This document shows, piece by piece, positions 1,482-22,203 of a DNA stretch of 38,620 bases. The first letter of the stretch is position 1, and every line of letters begins with the position of its first letter. The position numbers and the translations under genes are program-made. This DNA is from Bacteroidota bacterium (lineage in GTDB: Bacteria; Bacteroidota; Bacteroidia; Bacteroidales; JADFUO01), in the NCBI GenBank assembly GCA_030622635.1, contig JAUXFX010000007.1, positions 1 to 38,620 on the forward strand, read 5' to 3'. The notes below the pieces were generated by a model. It was not told the DNA's origin. It saw nothing but the letters and a program-made list of their open reading frames with translations, and did no database searches.

Positions 1482-4400
1482 TTATCTTCCAGAAACAAAA
1501 AGCTTTTTCGTATAAATCCTGTTATTCAATATAATTTTAACAATATAAACTGAATTTGCAACAATTACATGAATGCTGTTGATTGTGGAATTTTTTAATT
1601 TTTTACTTATAATAGGTTCTCCATTAATATTATAAATATTTACCTGCCCTTCAATTTTTTCCAAACCTTTAATATTTATGTAAATAATATTTTTTATACT
1701 GAAAATTTTAACAATTGGAGTATTTTGCAGATCATCAATTCCAGTGTATAAAGTGGTAACACTTATAGTATTTGAGTTCCCGCTTGTTCCACCGATATTA
1801 TATGCTCTCACACAATAATAATACATGATGCCCGGATTTAATCCTGAAACATTATATGTTGTTACATTACCTACATCCAGATTTTCATAACCAGAAACGA
1901 AGTTTGTAAAGGCATCATCTAAAGCTACATCAAGGCGATAACCGTCGGAATCACCTGATTCTTCCCAGTTTGCATCAAAGCTTGTTTCAGTTATATTTGT
2001 TGCATTAGTAACTTGTGGTGGCAAAGGAGGATAAGGCAAAGTTGTAACAAAAATAATATTTGAATTTCCGCTTATTACGCCGACGGTATTTTCAGCCCTT
2101 ACCCTATAATAATAATCTGTGTTTGCTGTTAAGTATGATACATTATAAGTAGTTACATTACCGACATTTAAATTTTCATATCCGTAAACAAAATTTGTAA
2201 AATCAATATCATAAGCAACATCAAGATAATATGTTATGGCATCAGGAACAGGTTCCCAATTTGCATCAAAGCTTGTTTGCTGAACATTTGTAGCCGGATT
2301 TGCAATTGGAGCACTCGGGTCATAAGGTAAGGTTGTAACACTAATTACATTTGAATTTCCACTTGTTCCTCCTGTATTAAATGCCCTGACACGATAAAAG
2401 TATTCAGTATTGGCGGCTAAACCAGATACAGTATAAGTAGTAACATTCCCAACATTAAGATTATCGTAACCACTTACAAAACTTGTAAAACCATTATCTG
2501 TTGCAACATCAAGATAATATCCGTCAGCACCTGCTGAAGCATCCCAGTTGGCTTCAAAAAATGTTTGTTGAATATTTGTTGCAGCAGTTGCATTTGGTGC
2601 TGGAGGAATTTCAGGTAAAGTTGTAACACTTATCACATTTGAATTACCGCTTGTTCCACCTGTGTTAAAAGCACGTACTCTGTAATAATAATCAGTATTA
2701 GCACTCAAGCCGGAAACATTATAAGTAGTAACATTTCCAACATTAAGATTTTCATATCCGCTCACAAAACTTGTAAAACCATTATCTGTTGCTACATCTA
2801 AATAATATCCATCGGCACCTGTTGCTGCATCCCAGTTGGCATCAAAGCTTGTTTGCTGAACATTAGTCGCTGATGTCGCATTTGGTGCCGAAGGTTCATT
2901 CGGCAAAGTTGTTAAGCTGATTACATTGGAGTTACCACTTGTACCGCCTGTATTAAAAGCACGTACTCTGTAATAATAATCAGTATTTGCAGTTAAACCC
3001 GAAACATTATAAGTGGTTACATTTCCAACATTAAGATTATCATAACCGCTTACAAAACTTGTAAAACCGTTGTCGGTTGCAACGTCAAGATAATATCCGT
3101 CTGCACCTGTAGAAGCATCCCAGTTGGCATCAAAACTTGTCTGCTGAATATTTGTAGCTGCTGTTGCATTAGGGGCAAGTGGCGGATCAACCAATGTTGT
3201 TAAACTAATTACATTTGAATTACCGCTTGTTCCACCGGTATTAAAAGCACGTACTCTGTAATAGTAATCAGTATTTGCAGTTAAGCCGGAAACATTATAA
3301 GTTGTTACATTTCCAACATTAAGATTATCGTATCCGGTTACAAAACTTGTGAAACCATTGTCAGTAGCTACATCAAGATAATATCCGTCTGCACCGGAAG
3401 AAGTATCCCAGTTAGCGTCAAAGCTTGTTTGCTGTATGTTGGTTGCTGCTGTTGCATTTGGGGCAGAAGGTGCATTAGGTAAGGTAGTCAAACTTATAAC
3501 ATTTGAGTTACCACTTGTACCATAAGAATTAAATGCTCTTACACGATAATAATAATCTGTATTTACACTTAAACCCGTAACATTATATGTAGTTACGTTT
3601 CCAACATTCAGATTATTGTATCCTGTTACAAAATTTGTAAATCCATTATCAGTAGCGACATCAAGATAATATCCGTCGGCACCTGAAGAAGCATCCCAGT
3701 TAGCATCAAAGCTTGTTTGCTGAATATTGGTTGCTGCAGTTGCATTAGGTGCAAGAGGTGGTGCTTCAAAAAATACTCCATAATCTTCCGATTGTCCAAT
3801 ATGAGGATTGCTGCATGGACCCGAAATAGTTGCATAATCACTAATAACCCTCATTCTAATCAGTTGGTTTACTGTGGGATTTGAAGGCATCACAATTGAA
3901 CTTGTAAAAGTGTTCGCAGAACTTGCTGTAGTACTGATCACATCATTTATTATAAGTTCGCCCGTATCATCAAAATCACCATCATTATTAAAATCAATAT
4001 AAGCGTTAGTATGAGCATTGCCGGATGTTCCAACCCTGACGGTTATCTCCATTGAGTATGTATTTCCGGGTGTTAATGTAGTTGAATACCGGCATGTAAA
4101 ATCCATACAACCTCCATCCGAATATGCATCTCCTGTTGAATGATCAAGATTGTTCAGGGTTACATTCAATATTCCATACCAGTAATTTCCCAGAGTTTGA
4201 GTAGATAGGGTACAGGAAGGTGCTGCCGGGCTATTATAAACATTAATGTAATTTGTTCTTGTCTGTGTATTACCTGTTCCTGAGACATTAGATGCTGTCA
4301 GGGTAACATCATAGATTCCCGCTGTGTTATATATAATTGAAGGATTTTCATTTGTTGATGAAGCAGGTGATCCGCTTGGAAAAGTCCAGCTCCAGCTACT

Positions 4401-5633
4401 TGGTCCGTTCGTTGACTGGTCAAGGAAATTTACAGTATTTCCTACACAAGGGCAATTCCCATCGGAACTAAAATCACTGTATGGAACAATGGTGGTTTTA
4501 GGTTCAATCCCAAAACCTGCTGCCTGATCATTAGTGAAATTATGAGAACCGGGATTAAGATTTGTAAGCTGGTAATACCCATTATGAGATCCGCTCCAGC
4601 CCCAGTTAAAATGAAAATACAAAGTTCCTGTACTTTGATAATCATCATCATAACCATCACAAACAAAAGCATGTCCACCGGTTCCATATCCCCTGTATAG
4701 CAATGGCCTGTCATTATCCAACTCTGTAATTAACATATTATTCCAAACAGTATTAGTATAATTAACTTTTTGGTCATAAAAAGCACTTGGTTTATATTCA
4801 AAATATGTTTTTAATGAAGTTACAGCAGCCGAAGTACTGGCACTTGATCCGGTAGGTCCATAATTCATATCAACTGAAACTCCCACATGATATAATAACA
4901 GAGCAACATCTTCATTACTTCCTGAAACCGGCATATTCGCCCAGTCATAAGTTGTAGAACCAAAATCTGCAGATAAAGTTCCATAGGTTGCATGAAAATA
5001 ACTATTTGAACCAACACCCTGATGTGGATGATGATGATATTTCATTATCATTCCTGTAGCTGTTGCAACACAACCTGCATAAGCATGTCCGCATGGTCCG
5101 GCTGCATCCGGCGGACAAGAATCATTATAAAGACAACCCTGATCCCATTTAATATCAGCTAAAAGCGGACCAACAACTGTCCTGTTCTCATAAAAACCAT
5201 TATCTTTTTCTGTTCTTGTTTCATATTTTTCCCACACAGAAATTATCTCTTCTGATGCAGGAAGATTATTTTCTTTTACAAATAATATCTGTTCTTTGTA
5301 ATTCTGCATCCAGAAAATGAATTGAGGTGGCTGATTATTTTCATAATAATTACCTTCAAATGAATATCCGAGTATAGGCAACACATGGTCTTCGGCAGAT
5401 ACAATTACAAAACCATTTTCATTTGATATATTAAAAACATAATAAACCGGAGTTTTACTATCATAAATCGTAAAATCCTCAATAAATCTAATATCATTAT
5501 AATTAACGTCAGATTTTTGAAAATAAAGATTTTTTGCAACTTGCCTTGCTTTATCTACAGATACTTCACCTGCAAATAAAATTAAATTGAAAAAAATCGA
5601 AATTAAGATTGTGGTAAAAATTTTGATTTTCAT
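1482..5633 (-). CDS. C10-family (streptopain/SpeB-like) cysteine peptidase with PKD, GEVED-like and 7 FN3 domains and a C-terminal T9SS sorting domain
   Basis: Signal peptide; catalytic Cys context CGHAYAGCVATATGMIMKYHHH and His context GGHAFVCDGYDD...HFNWGWSG; PKD VNFLDQSTNGPSSWSWTFPSG; seven ~95-aa FN3 repeats. Confidence 0.93.
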   Translation of the reverse strand: MKIKIFTTILISIFFNLILFAGEVSVDKARQVAKNLYFQKSDVNYNDIRFIEDFTIYDSKTPVYYVFNISNENGFVIVSAEDHVLPILGYSFEGNYYENNQPPQFIFWMQNYKEQILFVKENNLPASEEIISVWEKYETRTEKDNGFYENRTVVGPLLADIKWDQGCLYNDSCPPDAAGPCGHAYAGCVATATGMIMKYHHHPHQGVGSNSYFHATYGTLSADFGSTTYDWANMPVSGSNEDVALLLYHVGVSVDMNYGPTGSSASTSAAVTSLKTYFEYKPSAFYDQKVNYTNTVWNNMLITELDNDRPLLYRGYGTGGHAFVCDGYDDDYQSTGTLYFHFNWGWSGSHNGYYQLTNLNPGSHNFTNDQAAGFGIEPKTTIVPYSDFSSDGNCPCVGNTVNFLDQSTNGPSSWSWTFPSGSPASSTNENPSIIYNTAGIYDVTLTASNVSGTGNTQTRTNYINVYNSPAAPSCTLSTQTLGNYWYGILNVTLNNLDHSTGDAYSDGGCMDFTCRYSTTLTPGNTYSMEITVRVGTSGNAHTNAYIDFNNDGDFDDTGELIINDVISTTASSANTFTSSIVMPSNPTVNQLIRMRVISDYATISGPCSNPHIGQSEDYGVFFEAPPLAPNATAATNIQQTSFDANWDASSGADGYYLDVATDNGFTNFVTGYNNLNVGNVTTYNVTGLSVNTDYYYRVRAFNSYGTSGNSNVISLTTLPNAPSAPNATAATNIQQTSFDANWDTSSGADGYYLDVATDNGFTSFVTGYDNLNVGNVTTYNVSGLTANTDYYYRVRAFNTGGTSGNSNVISLTTLVDPPLAPNATAATNIQQTSFDANWDASTGADGYYLDVATDNGFTSFVSGYDNLNVGNVTTYNVSGLTANTDYYYRVRAFNTGGTSGNSNVISLTTLPNEPSAPNATSATNVQQTSFDANWDAATGADGYYLDVATDNGFTSFVSGYENLNVGNVTTYNVSGLSANTDYYYRVRAFNTGGTSGNSNVISVTTLPEIPPAPNATAATNIQQTFFEANWDASAGADGYYLDVATDNGFTSFVSGYDNLNVGNVTTYTVSGLAANTEYFYRVRAFNTGGTSGNSNVISVTTLPYDPSAPIANPATNVQQTSFDANWEPVPDAITYYLDVAYDIDFTNFVYGYENLNVGNVTTYNVSYLTANTDYYYRVRAENTVGVISGNSNIIFVTTLPYPPLPPQVTNATNITETSFDANWEESGDSDGYRLDVALDDAFTNFVSGYENLDVGNVTTYNVSGLNPGIMYYYCVRAYNIGGTSGNSNTISVTTLYTGIDDLQNTPIVKIFSIKNIIYINIKGLEKIEGQVNIYNINGEPIISKKLKNSTINSIHVIVANSVYIVKIILNNRIYTKKLFVSGR
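1745..3765 (-). repeat. Seven tandem FN3-encoding repeats (~285 bp each) inside the C10 peptidase gene
   Basis: Repeating APNATAATNIQQTSFDANWDASSGADGYYLDVATDNGFTSFVSGYDNLNVGNVTTYNVSGLTANTDYYYRVRAFNTGGTSGNSNVISLTTL; first five nearly identical. Confidence 0.92.
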
Positions 5634-7734: not shown

Positions 7735-8040
7735 CAAGTGTCATCCTGATGATTGAAATGAATCCGCATGGACGACCTCGCCTCGTTTGAAACGAGGCGA
7801 GGGAGGAAGGACCTCCCGGCAGTTTGGTATAAGCTGGCAAGTACTACCTGCCAACGACCTGGAAATTCGCCAGCAAATATCATCTGTCAATCAAGCACTT
7901 TGTCAACTTCCTTGTAAAACGCCGGCAAAGTGCTTTGTTAACTTTTCTGTAATATATTGACAAGGTATTTTGGCAGCAGCAGTGCAGGACGATGGAGGTC
8001 CCTCACCCCCGCTAAAGCGGGAGATTCGGGATGACACTTG
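7735..8040. repeat. ~306-bp intergenic element bounded by 12-bp perfect inverted repeats CAAGTGTCATCC/GGATGACACTTG
   Basis: Arms at 7735-7746 and 8029-8040; internal 12-bp-stem palindrome CTCGCCTCGTTTGAAACGAGGCGAG at 7777-7801. Confidence 0.7.
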
Positions 8041-8053
8041 CCTATTTACAAAC
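7888..8053 (+). repeat. Direct repeat R1 (left copy), similar to 9628-9834
   Basis: Shared ttgtaaaacgccggcaaagtgctttgtta.cttttctg.aatat...gtgcaggacgatgga...ccctcacccccgctaaagcgggagattcgggatgacacttgcctatt.acaaact. Confidence 0.9.
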
Positions 8054-8082
8054 TTCTTACCTTATCATTAAGAAATTTTAAT

Positions 8083-8296: not shown

Positions 8297-9511
8297 GTGA
8301 TTTTACATAATAAAGAGTACATAAAGCGCCAGTATTACTTACAGAAAGCTCTCTCTTTTGTGGATAAAAACCTGATAAAAGTCTTTACTGGTCAAAGGCG
8401 TACAGGTAAAAGTTATATGATGTTGCAGGTTATGGACGAAATACTTGAGATTCATCCCCTGGCACAAATCATATTTATTGATAAGGAATTAATGGCTTTT
8501 GATTTTATAAAGAATGCTGAAGATTTAATGAACTACCTGTCAGAAAAAATCAATAATAAGAAACGTGCATATATTTTTATTGATGAAGTGCAGGAAATAT
8601 TTGAATTTGAGAAAGTTCTTCGCAGCATTTTAAATGAAGGAATAGCTGATATCTGGTGCACGGGCAGTAATGCAGAAATCCTAACAGGCGAACTGGCTGA
8701 CCGTTTGAGTGGCCGTTATGTTGAGATACAAATACACGGACTGAGTTATCTTGAATTTCTCGAGTTTCATTCTTTAGATAATGTAAATGAAAGCCTGTTT
8801 AAATACTTAAAATACGGCGGTCTTCCAAATTTAAGAAACATACCATTGGAAGAAAATACTGCTTTTGATTATTTAAAATCAATAAATTCCACGGTATTGC
8901 TTAAAGATGTTATTAAAAGACATCAAATAAGAAATGTTTCAGTACTTGAAAATTTAATACGTTACCTCGCTGATAATACAGGCAGTTTGTTTTCTGCCAC
9001 CAGTATAAGCAAATTCCTGAAATCACAGGGACAAAAAATTTCTTCTTCCATTATCTCAAATTACCTCTCCTACATTTTGGATTCCTATTATCTTATCAAA
9101 GCCCGGCGTTTTGACCTTCAGGGAAAAAGAATTTTTGAAATCAATGAAAAATACTATTTTGAAGACCTTGGTTTACGAAATGCATGGCTTGGGTATCAAC
9201 CGATGCATATCAACAAACTCATAGAAAACGTGGTATTTAAACATATTTTGGAACAAGAATTTAAAATAACAATAGGCCAACTTGGTGATAAAAAAATTGA
9301 CTTTGTATCGGAAAAACCCGGTAAAAGAATTTATATTCAGTGTGCTTATTTAATCCCCGATAACAAAACCCGCGAAAGGGAGTTTGGCAACCTTTTGAAA
9401 ATAAAGGACAATCATAGAAAGATGGTAATAAGCATGGATGAACCATCCGGGGGAAATATTGAAGGTATTGAACACATACATTTAAGGGATTTTTTAAGCA
9501 CGAGATTTTAA
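8297..9511 (+). CDS. AAA ATPase with DUF4143-type C-terminal domain (AAA_14 family), GTG start
   Basis: Walker A FTGQRRTGKSYM, Walker B-like AYIFIDEVQEI, sensor-like WCTGSNAEILTGELADRLSGRYVEIQIHGLSYLEFLEF, C-terminal region typical of DUF4143. Confidence 0.9.
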   Translation: MILHNKEYIKRQYYLQKALSFVDKNLIKVFTGQRRTGKSYMMLQVMDEILEIHPLAQIIFIDKELMAFDFIKNAEDLMNYLSEKINNKKRAYIFIDEVQEIFEFEKVLRSILNEGIADIWCTGSNAEILTGELADRLSGRYVEIQIHGLSYLEFLEFHSLDNVNESLFKYLKYGGLPNLRNIPLEENTAFDYLKSINSTVLLKDVIKRHQIRNVSVLENLIRYLADNTGSLFSATSISKFLKSQGQKISSSIISNYLSYILDSYYLIKARRFDLQGKRIFEINEKYYFEDLGLRNAWLGYQPMHINKLIENVVFKHILEQEFKITIGQLGDKKIDFVSEKPGKRIYIQCAYLIPDNKTREREFGNLLKIKDNHRKMVISMDEPSGGNIEGIEHIHLRDFLSTRF

Positions 9512-9627: not shown

Positions 9628-9834
9628 CCAACCAAACACTCTGCTAATTTTATTGTAAAACGCCGGCAAAGTGCTTTGTTAGCTTTTCTGCAATATGCTT
9701 ACAAGGCAATTTTACCGGCAGAGGTGCAGGACGATGGATGAAGTACTTTGCCGACAGAGGTGCAGGACGATGGAGTTCCCTCACCCCCGCTAAAGCGGGA
9801 GATTCGGGATGACACTTGCCTATTCACAAACTTT
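9628..9834 (+). repeat. Direct repeat R1 (right copy) with an internal duplication of GGTGCAGGACGATGGA
   Basis: See 7888-8053; gcagaggtgcaggacgatgga / gacagaggtgcaggacgatgga internal duplication. Confidence 0.9.
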
Positions 9835-9851
9835 ACTTGTCAAGTGGTCAA

Positions 9852-10050
9852 CACTCAGTCCTTGAGGCAACGGACGGAGTAACCGTAGCCCTTATCTCGG
9901 CCTCCACTGTAGACGCCATCGCCATTGTAGTAGAGCATCCGGTGCCAAGCGGTCGAACTACTGCTCTCGCTCGACGACCAGAATTGGCCGTAGAAGATGA
10001 GGCTGTGGAACGAACCAGTGAGGGAGTGGCGGTTGCCCCCGGGTAGACCT
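9852..10050 (-). other. Candidate DGR variable region (VR) at the 3' end of the FISUMP gene
   Basis: Coding strand: ggc aac cgc cac tcc ctc act ggt tcg ttc cac agc ctc atc ttc tac ggc ... tgg cac cgg atg ctc tac tac aat ggc gat ggc gtc tac ... tac ggt tac tcc gtc cgt tgc ctc aag gac tga; NNC-rich, GC-richer than the rest of the gene. Confidence 0.72.
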
Positions 10051-11171
10051 GTGAACCCACTGGAATTTGTTGCTCCTGTATTCGGTGATTTCCAATGTGC
10101 TGTGCCGACTTCTTTCATTTTTCCACCTGCTACACTACTTCCTCCAAGAAAATCAGTTAGAGTTGTCCATTCATCATAACTCGGCAGATGCCACCCATTT
10201 GGGCAAATACCCTGTGTGCCTTGTTGGGTTGTATATTGCATCATTTCGTTCCATTGGTATAAAGCTCCATATTCATCACAATTAGCTTCGTTGTCATCAT
10301 AACAGAATTTTTCAATAGTTCCGTTATTACTCATATTTTGAGAACCATTAATACGTGTTCCAACATTAAGGTTTTCTTTTAACCAGCATTGATTACCTAT
10401 TAAAACAGTGTTATAAACATTACCGTCTTCATCGGTAACTGTTGGTATACCCGGGCATGGTATCCCTTCAATTATCTCAAATATATAAATTTTATTATTC
10501 TGCGGAGCATCCTCAATCACATCGCTTCCTGCAATTCCTTCAATTGTTTTTGCATAACCAATATACTGTAAATCATCACCAGGATTAAATACAAAATTAT
10601 TAATAGCTTTTTGAGATTTAAAACTAATAATATTGTTATCAAAACCATTATAAACTAATTTGCATTGTATTTTATTATTGCTATTTATATTTACCATTTT
10701 AATTGTTTTACTTACACTGTTTCCTTTTGCAGTAAACAAATAATACTTTTCTTTCCCTATATAAAAGGTGAATGAATGATTGCCGGAAATTAAAGTATTC
10801 TCAAAAAAAGCTACTTCTCTGCCTACAATATCCCGAATAGTGATTCTAATATGTTCTTTTTCCGGTAAATACAAATTAACTGTTGTTTTTCCTTCAAAAG
10901 GATTGGGATAATTCTGCGAAACAAAAAAGCTGTTTTTCTCTACTCCATCATTATTAGTAATACCAACAATATATTCCAATAGCAGTGTAGTATCAGGTGC
11001 ATAAAGCATTGTATCTCCACCTTGCGTCAGGTTCTTGATAAAGATACTGTCCAAAGGAACATACTGCCCGTTGTTTTCTGCTGTGAAAGTTAATTCCATT
11101 GTGGGTTTTTGGCTAAAGGCATTTACAAAAAACCCAACTGCCAAAATTGAAAGAAGAATTTTTGTTTTCAT
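9855..11171 (-). CDS. Secreted FISUMP (Fibrobacter succinogenes major paralogous)-domain protein; probable DGR variable protein
   Basis: Signal peptide MKTKILLSILAVGFFVNAFSQ; internal T9SS-like domain SQNYPNPFEGKTTVNLYLPEKEHIRITIRDIVGREV; FISUMP motifs VTDEDGNVYNTVLIGNQCWLKENLNVGT...ICPNGWHLPSYDEWTTLTDFLGG...GYSVRCLKD at the C-terminus. Confidence 0.9.
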   Translation of the reverse strand: MKTKILLSILAVGFFVNAFSQKPTMELTFTAENNGQYVPLDSIFIKNLTQGGDTMLYAPDTTLLLEYIVGITNNDGVEKNSFFVSQNYPNPFEGKTTVNLYLPEKEHIRITIRDIVGREVAFFENTLISGNHSFTFYIGKEKYYLFTAKGNSVSKTIKMVNINSNNKIQCKLVYNGFDNNIISFKSQKAINNFVFNPGDDLQYIGYAKTIEGIAGSDVIEDAPQNNKIYIFEIIEGIPCPGIPTVTDEDGNVYNTVLIGNQCWLKENLNVGTRINGSQNMSNNGTIEKFCYDDNEANCDEYGALYQWNEMMQYTTQQGTQGICPNGWHLPSYDEWTTLTDFLGGSSVAGGKMKEVGTAHWKSPNTGATNSSGFTGLPGGNRHSLTGSFHSLIFYGQFWSSSESSSSTAWHRMLYYNGDGVYSGGRDKGYGYSVRCLKD

Positions 11172-11248
11172 AAAATTCGATTTTAAAAATACATAATATG
11201 GGTAAGGATTGTATAAAAATTCAAATTATGTTCCTATGAAAATATTAT

Positions 11249-11262
11249 AGAAATGGAATGTT
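11249..11262. repeat. Solo arm of the dispersed repeat (AGAAATGGAATGTT)
   Basis: TGAAAATATTATAGAAATGGAATGTT, shared with 16569-16593. Confidence 0.75.
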
Positions 11263-11342
11263 AAACCATTCAACTATTTAGTTAGTCCATAAAGTCAAAC
11301 AAATTACGAATTAAAGCACCAAAACTTGGTGCTTGTCATTTG

Positions 11343-13553
11343 TTATTTTTGATATTTATTCAAACTATCAATCCTTGTAGCTTTATTAACTCCTTTAATT
11401 TTTACCAATTTAAACAGCAACTCATCCAAATGCTTGGTGTCTTTTACACTAACTTTAATTTTCCCTTCAAACATTCCGTTTTTTGAATCAGCAGAAATTG
11501 ACATCATATTAACTTTCAGGTCGTTTGAAATTACTTTTGAAATTTGCTTTAACAAACCAATTTCATCAACACCTGTTACTTTTATAATTGTTTGGAAATG
11601 TATCTGATCCGCATCTTTCCATTTTACATCAATTATACGGTAATCATATTTTGAAAGCATTTGTGCTGCATTAGGGCAGTTTACTCTGTGGATTGTAATT
11701 CCTTTGCCAACAGTAATAAATCCAAAAACAGCATCTCCCGATATTGGATTACAGCACTTGGCTAAACTATAGGTGATATTTTTTATTTTATCATCAATTT
11801 CTAAAAACTCTTCCTCAGATTTTTCAAGCTGTTTGCTTATTTCTTCATAGGCAATAGTTTTACTCTCACCATTTTTTTTCGGTAAAGCATTACCGGCCTT
11901 TTCAACTAAAAGCTTTTTTACTTCTGCTAAATTCACTTTCTCAACTGCAATGGAATAATACAGATCAACCGACGATTTAAATTTATAATGTTTTATCAAC
12001 TTGTCAATTGACTCATCATTAAAAGGTATTTTCCAGTTTTTCAATTTTCGTCTTAAAATCTGATTTCCATTATCTGCTTCTTTATATTTATCTTCCAGCA
12101 ATGAACGTTTGATCCTACTTTTTGCTTTATTAGTAACAACTAAATTCAACCAGTCAAGCTTTGGTTTTTGATTTTTAGTTGTAATAATTTCAACTTTATC
12201 TCCGTTTTGAAGCACATGTTTAATCTGGACTAATCTATTATTAACTTTAGCACCGCTGCATTTAGAGCCGACATCAGTATGTATTTCGTATGCAAAGTCC
12301 AGCACGGTCGAACCGTATTCTAATTTTTTAAGGTCGCCATTTGGAGTGAAAATATAAACTTTATCATTCGGACTGTCTTTTTTCCTACCTGCTTCAATAT
12401 CAAAGTTAATTTGTTCAGGATTTTCCAAAATATCCCTGATTTGATTTAACCATTCCTCGCTATCTTTTTTCTTATCAAGCCCTTTGTATATCCAGTGAGC
12501 TGCCCTGCCTTTCTCTGCAACCTCATCCATTCGTTTGGTTCTTATCTGAACTTCAACCCATTTTTTGTTCTGACCAAGCACAGTTGTATGTAATGATTCA
12601 TAACCACTTGCTTTAGGAGTTGTTATCCAGTCACGAAGCCGTTTTGGATTTGGCTGGAAAATATCAGTTACAATTGAATAAATCCGCCAGCAGTCTAATT
12701 TTTCATTTTTTAATTTACTATTGCTAATTATCCTGATTGCAAAAAGATCAAAAACCTGTTCAAATTCCAGATTTTGCTTTTTCATCTTATTCCATATACT
12801 ATGGATGGATTTCGGACGCCCGATAATATCACAGTCTATTTTTTGAAGGATCAGTTTACGTTGAATCGGGTCAATAAATTCCTGTATAAAAACATTTCGT
12901 TTGGATTTTGTTGCCTGAAGATTTTTTGATACCTCATTATAGATTTCAGGGTTTTCGTATTTCATTAACAGCTCCTCCAGCTCCGACTTAATATTATACA
13001 AACCAAGGCGGTGGGCTATTGGAATATATAAATATGAAACCTCAGAAGAGAATTTTTGTTGCTTTTCCTTAGAAAATGAATTAATATTTCGCATATCATT
13101 AAGCCGATGGGCAAGCTTAATCAGGATTACCCTGATGTCATTAATTAGAGTAAGAAAGAGTTTTCTGAAATTTTCAGATTGCAGGGAAATTTTTTCTGTG
13201 CTTAATTCTGAAACTTTAGCAATGTCCTCAATAATCACAGCAACTGATTTTCCGAACTGATTTTCAATTTCTTCTAATGTAAGATATTTGAATTTAACAA
13301 CATGATATAATAAAGCACAAATAATAGAAGTAATACCTAAGCCAATCTGGTCAACACAAATTTTAGCTACATCAATATTATGACAAATATTAAACTCTCC
13401 TGTATTTGCATAATTTTCAATTTCGGCATTATATGCAATTTCATAGGCACGGTTAACCAAACTTATATCACCCCTTTTCATTAAGGGCTTACATTTATCA
13501 ATTAATTCAAGATATTTTGAATTAATCTGAATTTTAGTTTCTTCACTAATCAT
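11343..13553 (-). CDS. RelA/SpoT-family (p)ppGpp synthetase with degenerate HD hydrolase motif, TGS and ACT domains
   Basis: Synthetase motifs IGRPKSIHSIWNKM, DLFAIRII, PKASGYESLHTTV, VEVQIRTKRMDEVAEKGRAAHWIYK; TGS VYIFTPNGDLKKLEYGSTVLDFAYEIHTDVGSKCSGAKVN; C-terminal ACT-like domain. Confidence 0.93.
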   Translation of the reverse strand: MISEETKIQINSKYLELIDKCKPLMKRGDISLVNRAYEIAYNAEIENYANTGEFNICHNIDVAKICVDQIGLGITSIICALLYHVVKFKYLTLEEIENQFGKSVAVIIEDIAKVSELSTEKISLQSENFRKLFLTLINDIRVILIKLAHRLNDMRNINSFSKEKQQKFSSEVSYLYIPIAHRLGLYNIKSELEELLMKYENPEIYNEVSKNLQATKSKRNVFIQEFIDPIQRKLILQKIDCDIIGRPKSIHSIWNKMKKQNLEFEQVFDLFAIRIISNSKLKNEKLDCWRIYSIVTDIFQPNPKRLRDWITTPKASGYESLHTTVLGQNKKWVEVQIRTKRMDEVAEKGRAAHWIYKGLDKKKDSEEWLNQIRDILENPEQINFDIEAGRKKDSPNDKVYIFTPNGDLKKLEYGSTVLDFAYEIHTDVGSKCSGAKVNNRLVQIKHVLQNGDKVEIITTKNQKPKLDWLNLVVTNKAKSRIKRSLLEDKYKEADNGNQILRRKLKNWKIPFNDESIDKLIKHYKFKSSVDLYYSIAVEKVNLAEVKKLLVEKAGNALPKKNGESKTIAYEEISKQLEKSEEEFLEIDDKIKNITYSLAKCCNPISGDAVFGFITVGKGITIHRVNCPNAAQMLSKYDYRIIDVKWKDADQIHFQTIIKVTGVDEIGLLKQISKVISNDLKVNMMSISADSKNGMFEGKIKVSVKDTKHLDELLFKLVKIKGVNKATRIDSLNKYQK

Positions 13554-21700: not shown

Positions 21701-21929
21701 TGTATTTGATTCTTTGTTGGTTTTAAATATAGTTCAAAATTAAAACCAAATTCGTTGAGAATTAATAAACAGTTGCGGGTTACCTATTACGGGTTGTTTA
21801 AAAACTCGAAACACGCAACTCGCAACTCGCAACTGTATTCAAAACCTTAGGAAATAAACCGGAATAAATTTATGTTTGAAAAATTTACTCATTGCCTTTT
21901 AACCCGAAAGCTTTGAAATTTTTAATAAA

Positions 21930-22115
21930 AATGGCAGGTCTTCTGACTTACTCCCCTTTTGAATGCCTTCCCATCTAACAATTAACAGACAGTGACAAGA
22001 GAACTTCAAAAAGTTGAAAAGAGCTTACAGCAGCGGGAACTGTTCAGGACTTTCACCTGATTCCCTATTATGTTTTATTTCTAAGAAGCAGAAATAAAAA
22101 CACCATTAATTTGTG
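21930..22115 (-). ncRNA. Cobalamin (B12) riboswitch
   Basis: On the minus strand: AATAGGGAATCAGGTGAAAGTCCTGAACAGTTCCCGCTGCTGTAAGCTC...CACTGTCTG...GGGAAGGCA...AAGTCAGAAGACCTGCC, matching the conserved B12-box core. Confidence 0.93.
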
Positions 22116-22203
22116 CAAATATATAAAAATTTAAATTATAAATGAAAAATTTTAAATTAAAAAACCTTATGGAATAATATATAAATTATAACAATGATAA
22201 TTT

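Follow-up and report, generated by a model that had tools for sequence, protein, structure and literature searches.

Diversity-generating retroelements (DGRs) are systems that randomise adenine positions. In human microbiomes, the Fib_succ_major or FISUMP domain is one of the domains listed for DGR targets (PMC4159848). DGR surveys begin from the reverse transcriptase (RT), and it has been noted that they miss targets distant from an RT (PMC8144416). In Pseudogulbenkiania sp. NH8B, the RT and targets are over 370 kb apart, with a strongly mutated RT near these targets (PMC3521204), and inactivated DGRs with broken RTs have been documented as well (PMC3521204, Figure 4). As for phage-related DGRs, a GC-rich inverted repeat with a 7-10 bp stem and a 4-nt GRNA loop is located 4-34 bp past the variable region (VR) (PMC3240598).

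The locus described here lies in a stretch of 38,620 nucleotides of a Bacteroidales genome, this whole stretch being called the window (Table 1). Like the Bacteroidota DGRs with FISUMP targets of the C-type-lectin-like type, it has a C-terminal FISUMP tail in which variable codons are of the NNC type and the end, ...GxSVRCxxD, is conserved; unlike them, it has no avd, template (TR) or RT, whether linked to the target or elsewhere in the assembly, and no hairpin-ATCGA flank. It resembles remote DGR targets and multi-VR DGRs, such as those of NH8B, in that the VR is far from any RT, several genes are VR-like and the remains of a lost cassette lie beside one of them. However, in those an intact RT elsewhere serves the targets, whereas none was found in the window's genome, in which the VR-like genes moreover resemble different templates (the Dive96 TR for that of contig C67, the G049 TR for that of contig C209). 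It is also similar to the inactivated DGRs (PMC3521204), as the function of the machinery appears to be lost and diversified targets remain, but those keep a broken RT and a TR, while in the window's genome nothing but 39 codons of an avd is left, and at a different locus. There is no new mechanism here: the literature already describes DGR targets of the FISUMP family, remote targets and dead DGRs (PMC4159848, PMC3521204, PMC8144416). What is unusual is that a genome without detectable RT or TR combines an avd stub with several VR-like genes.

Table 1. Features of the target locus and related elements (positions are those of the window unless a locus is named)
Feature	Position	Strand	Basis or remark
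Candidate DGR target gene, FISUMP-domain protein, 438 aa	9855..11171	-	Profile and full-length homology matches
Signal-peptide-like hydrophobic stretch, protein N-terminus (MKTKILLSILAVGFFVNAFSQ)	within gene 9855..11171	-	
N-terminal region typical of target family	10455..11120	-	
T9SS sorting-domain-like segment, mid-protein, residues 88-137 (weak)	10761..10910	-	PF18962 and TIGR04183 below cut-off
FISUMP (Fib_succ_major) domain	9858..10430	-	TIGR02145 residues 248-438; PF09603 residues 256-437
DGR-type VR of 64 codons, NNC-rich, with a GC3 of 0.77	9858..10049	-	Composition, codon-position and template tests
Conserved VR 3' end (TCCGTCCGTTGCCTCAAGGAC)	9858..9878	-	At the place of the IMH; putative IMH function
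GC-rich inverted repeat (CTCCCGC-TTTA-GCGGGGG)	9784..9801	-	7-bp stem, 53 nt past stop codon
Repeated element directly downstream of target gene	9629..9833	.	Second copy 7888-8055 (73%)
avd 5' stub, 39 codons	G000 contig C67, L180:9221-9346	minus	Between VR-bearing FISUMP gene and putative lipoprotein gene
Truncated or stop-containing avds	L271:6220-6357; L259:6484-6606; L287:6297-6374; L284:1018-1344; L267:8759-8842		
Short accessory ORF	L173:4995-5348 (minus); L171:3583-3918 (minus); L303:1262-1579; L093:2862-3225		

The target protein, P0001, belongs to the FISUMP/Fib_succ_major family (PF09603, E 1.3e-36; TIGR02145, E 2.8e-42), and its C-terminal domain is that of a known DGR target family with the VR at the 3' end of the gene. 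Its N-terminal family is present in 98 of the 393 genomes of the order, often in several copies. The segment resembling a T9SS sorting domain, which scores 21.6 bits with PF18962 (cut-off 27) and 18.5 bits with TIGR04183 (cut-off 23), sits in the middle of the chain and not at its C-terminus. No relative of the target was found by sequence in the PDB, and an AlphaFold2 model based on an alignment of three sequences has a mean pLDDT of 33.9. The target had no match among phages and plasmids, and viral contigs matched neither the target protein nor a TR pattern. Viral contigs with related RTs carry FISUMP-like targets and one TR/VR pair, but no close template.

The original prediction was built on a jump from AT-rich to NNC codon usage at the end of the gene, and this jump is clear. 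On entering the last 64 codons of gene 9855-11171, GC3 rises from 0.22 to 0.77, and third-position C/(C+T) from 0.18 to 0.77 (Fisher p = 6.4e-12). The switch is abrupt, at codon GGT CTA CCC (10049), and the GC content is 59% at 9860-10039 against about 0.18-0.41 across 10220-11980. Among 39 FISUMP or VR-type genes measured, this GC3 jump is the largest. The codons quoted in the prediction and the end that it reads (TAC GGT TAC TCC GTC CGT TGC CTC AAG GAC TGA) are exact, with the tail corresponding to 9858-10049, and the three overlapping shadow ORFs that it lists (9816-10046, 9848-10060 and 9997-10179) are present. The GTCCGTTGCCTCA of the VR 3' end is identical in the TR and the VR of G049, the relative in the order with the closest complete DGR system. 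No RNA was detected near the VR with Rfam. The prediction also relied on the amino-acid frame GGNR..GSF..FWSSxE..AWxR..GxSVRC. The frame is present, but it is general to FISUMP domains and by itself not diagnostic of DGRs, because much of it recurs in paralogs that have no DGR signal, with variation at identical residues. The diagnostic signs are conservation of third bases with saturation of first and second bases, together with a match to real templates.

We compared the window VR with the VR of congener G001 (contig C115, which is also L043). Over 63 codons, the two VRs have 24, 22 and 16 differences at codon positions 1, 2 and 3, whereas the upstream FISUMP cores have 32, 27 and 64 over 137 codons (Fisher p = 9e-4). 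The VR differences are concentrated at the sites where the G049 TR has an A (41/68, against 22/121 elsewhere; p = 5.6e-9), and likewise with the A sites of the Dive96 TR (p = 5.5e-6). In the AAN codons of the template, positions 1 and 2 differ at 34 of 54 sites and position 3 at 8 of 27 (OR 4.0, p = 0.0045); the same test gives an OR of 4.8 for the known VRs of G049 and Dive96 and of about 1 for most control pairs of paralogs. The codon-position test is nevertheless imperfect on its own, since one control pair, C60-G200, unexpectedly gave p = 0.0145.

Because no template was found in the genome itself, A-restricted change could be judged solely against the templates of other genomes. Five foreign TRs were used, one each from the relatives G049, Dive96 and G204 and two from a fourth relative, G211. 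Compared with them, the window VR has an excess of change at template A, with p values between 9e-6 and 5e-3 that are, like the others given here, guides rather than exact probabilities, because many comparisons were made, the sequences are related and sites were treated as independent. Between 28 and 39% of non-A sites also differ, which we read as divergence of the templates. The TR/VR pairs serving as positive controls were G049 (44/68 A and 0/121 non-A sites changed), G204 (31/69 and 0/117), Dive96 (21/57 and 2/129) and G211 (19/59 and 2/127). Among the FISUMP paralogs of the window's own genome, C60 and C36 have no A-site excess (p >= 0.4 with all five TRs) and C99 gave p = 0.04-0.23; the three are devoid of a composition jump. 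An 18-base pattern scan of genome contigs returned mostly chance matches in GC-rich genomes, and also found L043 and L093.

Could the tail be that of an ordinary FISUMP protein, shaped by diversifying selection or biased gene conversion with no DGR involved? The motif frame is family-wide, and the tails of paralogs without DGR signs vary at the same residues, as this explanation would have it. However, the conservation of third positions with saturation of the first two is unlike what is seen in most control pairs, the A-site excess relative to the G049 template is strong, and paralogs C60, C36 and C99 have neither the composition jump nor a consistent A-site excess. We consider this explanation very improbable. 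The codon-position signature, the template-A excess and the presence of a full-length homolog in the complete DGR locus of G049 bear out the original view of the tail as a DGR target region, and the sequence evidence supports that it behaves as a DGR variable region. A target can thus be recognised without its RT or template, from the GC3 jump, the saturation of bases 1 and 2 with third-base conservation, and the templates of relatives.

The part of the prediction that is not supported is the placing of the RT and the template elsewhere in the genome. The assembly is a draft MAG of 3.13 Mb in 279 contigs, 92.6% complete, and neither element was found in it. RTs were sought with PF00078, with one DGR RT as query and with a profile of five DGR RTs. 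For the TR, the queries were the VR, a hypothetical TR with its A's restored and the joined G049 and Dive96 TRs, and they matched only VR-like genes in the genome. No intact DGR-type avd was detected either, the best matches to the bAvd profile in the assembly scoring 20.7 and 17.7 bits (cut-off 40); PF22296 was used in place of PF05635, which was dropped as an Avd marker because it matches everywhere, owing to 23S IVP proteins. The search that had been proposed, for a near-copy template, a DGR RT and an Avd gene, thus returned only VR-like genes and the 39-codon avd stub. The absence of template and RT from the complete genome had been named, together with a lack of excess nonsynonymous variation at the NNC codons among strains, as evidence against a DGR target; both are absent from the assembly, but the genome is incomplete.

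This incompleteness leaves room for an active remote target, with RT, avd and TR present in the organism but missing from the draft because they sit on a replicon left out of the bin, on a mobile element or in a repeat that was collapsed. The VR would then still be diversified in trans. The fragmentation of the assembly is in line with this idea, as is the precedent of targets located far from their RT (PMC3521204, PMC8144416). Furthermore, the VR is still GC-rich although the genome is AT-rich, a sign that the writing was recent. In contrast, an RT match is lacking in all four congeneric MAGs (77-93% complete), three congeneric MAGs yielded neither RT nor TR, and no TR was found for any of the VR-like genes of the genome. 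On balance an active DGR acting from a distance appears rather unlikely, and the absence of RT and TR would be explained by loss rather than by missing sequence.

On contig C101 of G049, two FISUMP targets, avd, TR and RT follow one another in that order, and the nearer target aligns end to end with P0001 (45% over 455 columns, E 2.6e-118). The RT of G049 (L170:4053-5024, minus strand) lacks about 70 residues through an in-frame gap, among them the GLPIGNLTSQ region present in other RTs; its TR/VR pair is nonetheless free of non-A change. Given the missing residues, the C101 locus may be recently dead. A second DGR-like locus of G049 (L171, contig C23, 2151-3318, minus strand) has a TR-like ORF and an RT split in two frames, and in the DGR RT at L093:4140-5330 the catalytic YVDD is interrupted between YV and DD by a 9-residue insertion. 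In G204 and on contig C237 of G211, a target is accompanied by avd, TR and RT, and no RT defects like those of G049 were seen. The RTs of G211 C87, G332 and G147 also look intact. The fact that G332, G204, G147 and G211, which have P0001-like targets, carry intact-looking DGR RTs speaks for an active system also serving the window target. Several cassettes of the group have a short accessory ORF of about 110-170 aa near avd and TR; that of L171, the sole one tested, has no Pfam match. In L043, the first ten codons of this ORF may persist after the VR.

A trace of a lost DGR is on contig C67 of the window's genome. There, a FISUMP VR gene is followed by the avd stub, placed as in DGR cassettes, and then by an unrelated putative lipoprotein gene. 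Over its 39 residues the stub is 72-79% identical to the avds of three DGR cassettes of G015. The C67 tail differs from the Dive96 TR at 26/57 A and 20/129 non-A sites (p = 2e-5). The FISUMP tail of C209 (L205, stop at 2293, minus strand) fits the G049 template better than the window VR does (32/68 A and 20/121 non-A sites changed, p = 9e-6). From the C67 and C209 results, the genome has several VR-like genes related to different templates and one truncated cassette. That the avd beside the C67 target is truncated is a further argument against an active DGR serving the window target from a distance. Stubs or broken avds after targets are also found in G303, G223, G043 and G007. G303, which is 96% complete in two contigs, has a P0001-like target and an avd stub with no RT match, and is thus a precedent for orphaning. 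Five further genomes of the order have truncated or stop-containing avds 3' of their VR-type targets (Table 1).

The 3' flank of the target gene is unlike those of the cassettes. After the VR stop codon, a recurring pattern consists of TTTGACTATTTG-like repeats, followed by a GC-rich hairpin and (A)TCGA, and then by a T-run and usually the ATG of avd; it was seen in the 3' flanks of L271, L259, L287 and L283, and a similar stem with TCGAT in L172 and L176. The GC-rich hairpin and ATCGA of several DGR-type 3' flanks are absent at 9735-9854. The sole strong stem of the window flank has a TTTA loop and lies 53 nt from the stop codon, and it thus differs from the phage-related hairpin (PMC3240598) both in its distance and in its lack of a GRNA loop. 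It is doubtful as a DGR target hairpin, because it is inside a repeated element and unlike the cassette hairpins, which themselves differ in detail from the phage geometry. The repeated element is related to flanks of G079 homologs, and its two copies (7888-8055 and 9629-9833) flank an AAA_14/DUF4143 gene at 8297-9511. The missing hairpin-ATCGA flank is compatible with orphaning, if one assumes that targets in this order need the hairpin, and it also weighs against the VR being diversified in trans at present.

Alternatively, a DGR of another lineage might have written the tail, which would then have arrived ready-made, transferred horizontally or through recombination with a FISUMP gene that bears a DGR. 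In that case no DGR would ever have acted on this gene in this genome. The abrupt join between an AT-rich body and a GC-rich tail could be taken as a sign of such an event, and the most similar congener VR is indeed on a protein with a different N-terminus, between different neighbour genes. Writing from a GC-rich TR would yield the same join with no donor gene, however, and the avd stub indicates that a DGR cassette once resided in the genome. A tail imported as such seems improbable to us.

The preferred reading, which we regard as probable, is that the VR was written by DGR mutagenic retrohoming and is now orphaned after loss of the DGR; orphaning is suggested by the lack of RT and template in the assembly and by the shortening of the C67 cassette, of which a target and an avd stub are left. 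In such a scenario, reverse transcription of a DGR template RNA would have introduced errors at its adenines, and the resulting cDNA would have replaced the 3' end of the FISUMP gene to give the VR, in a target unlinked to any DGR cassette. One cassette of the genome would have been reduced to the target and the first 39 codons of avd (C67). The DGR would have been lost afterwards, and the VR kept, frozen but still coding, as one variant of a surface that putatively binds ligands. The VR tail presumably binds ligands. The writing was probably fairly recent, because the VR keeps a template-like GC3 while the tails of other paralogs match the AT-rich genome. The case points to a diversified receptor that was retained although its DGR was lost, which bears on the worth of a diversified surface protein once diversification stops.

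It is tempting to extend this reading to the whole order, although we do so tentatively and would not yet bet on it. DGR cassettes might turn over, with RT, TR and most of avd deleted and stubs of about 26-46 codons recurring, and often leave their FISUMP targets behind as a frozen repertoire drifting towards host codon usage. If this is true, the tails of the genome form a graded series in which C162 and C67 are fresh and C60, C99 and C36 fully ameliorated, and orphan VRs could serve to date past DGR activity.

As for the other genes of the window, recR and those coding for a C10 peptidase, a phosphoglucomutase/phosphomannomutase-type enzyme, the AAA_14/DUF4143 protein and a RelA/SpoT-type protein, as well as floA, nfeD and clpS, were considered as DGR parts and ruled out. 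The C10-family peptidase (1482-5633, minus strand) is large and combines a Spi inhibitor domain with PKD, GEVED and several fn3 repeats. Finally, a Cobalamin riboswitch (RF00174, 100.9 bits) is located at 21916-22122 on the minus strand, upstream of a gene coding for a TonB-dependent receptor plug domain.
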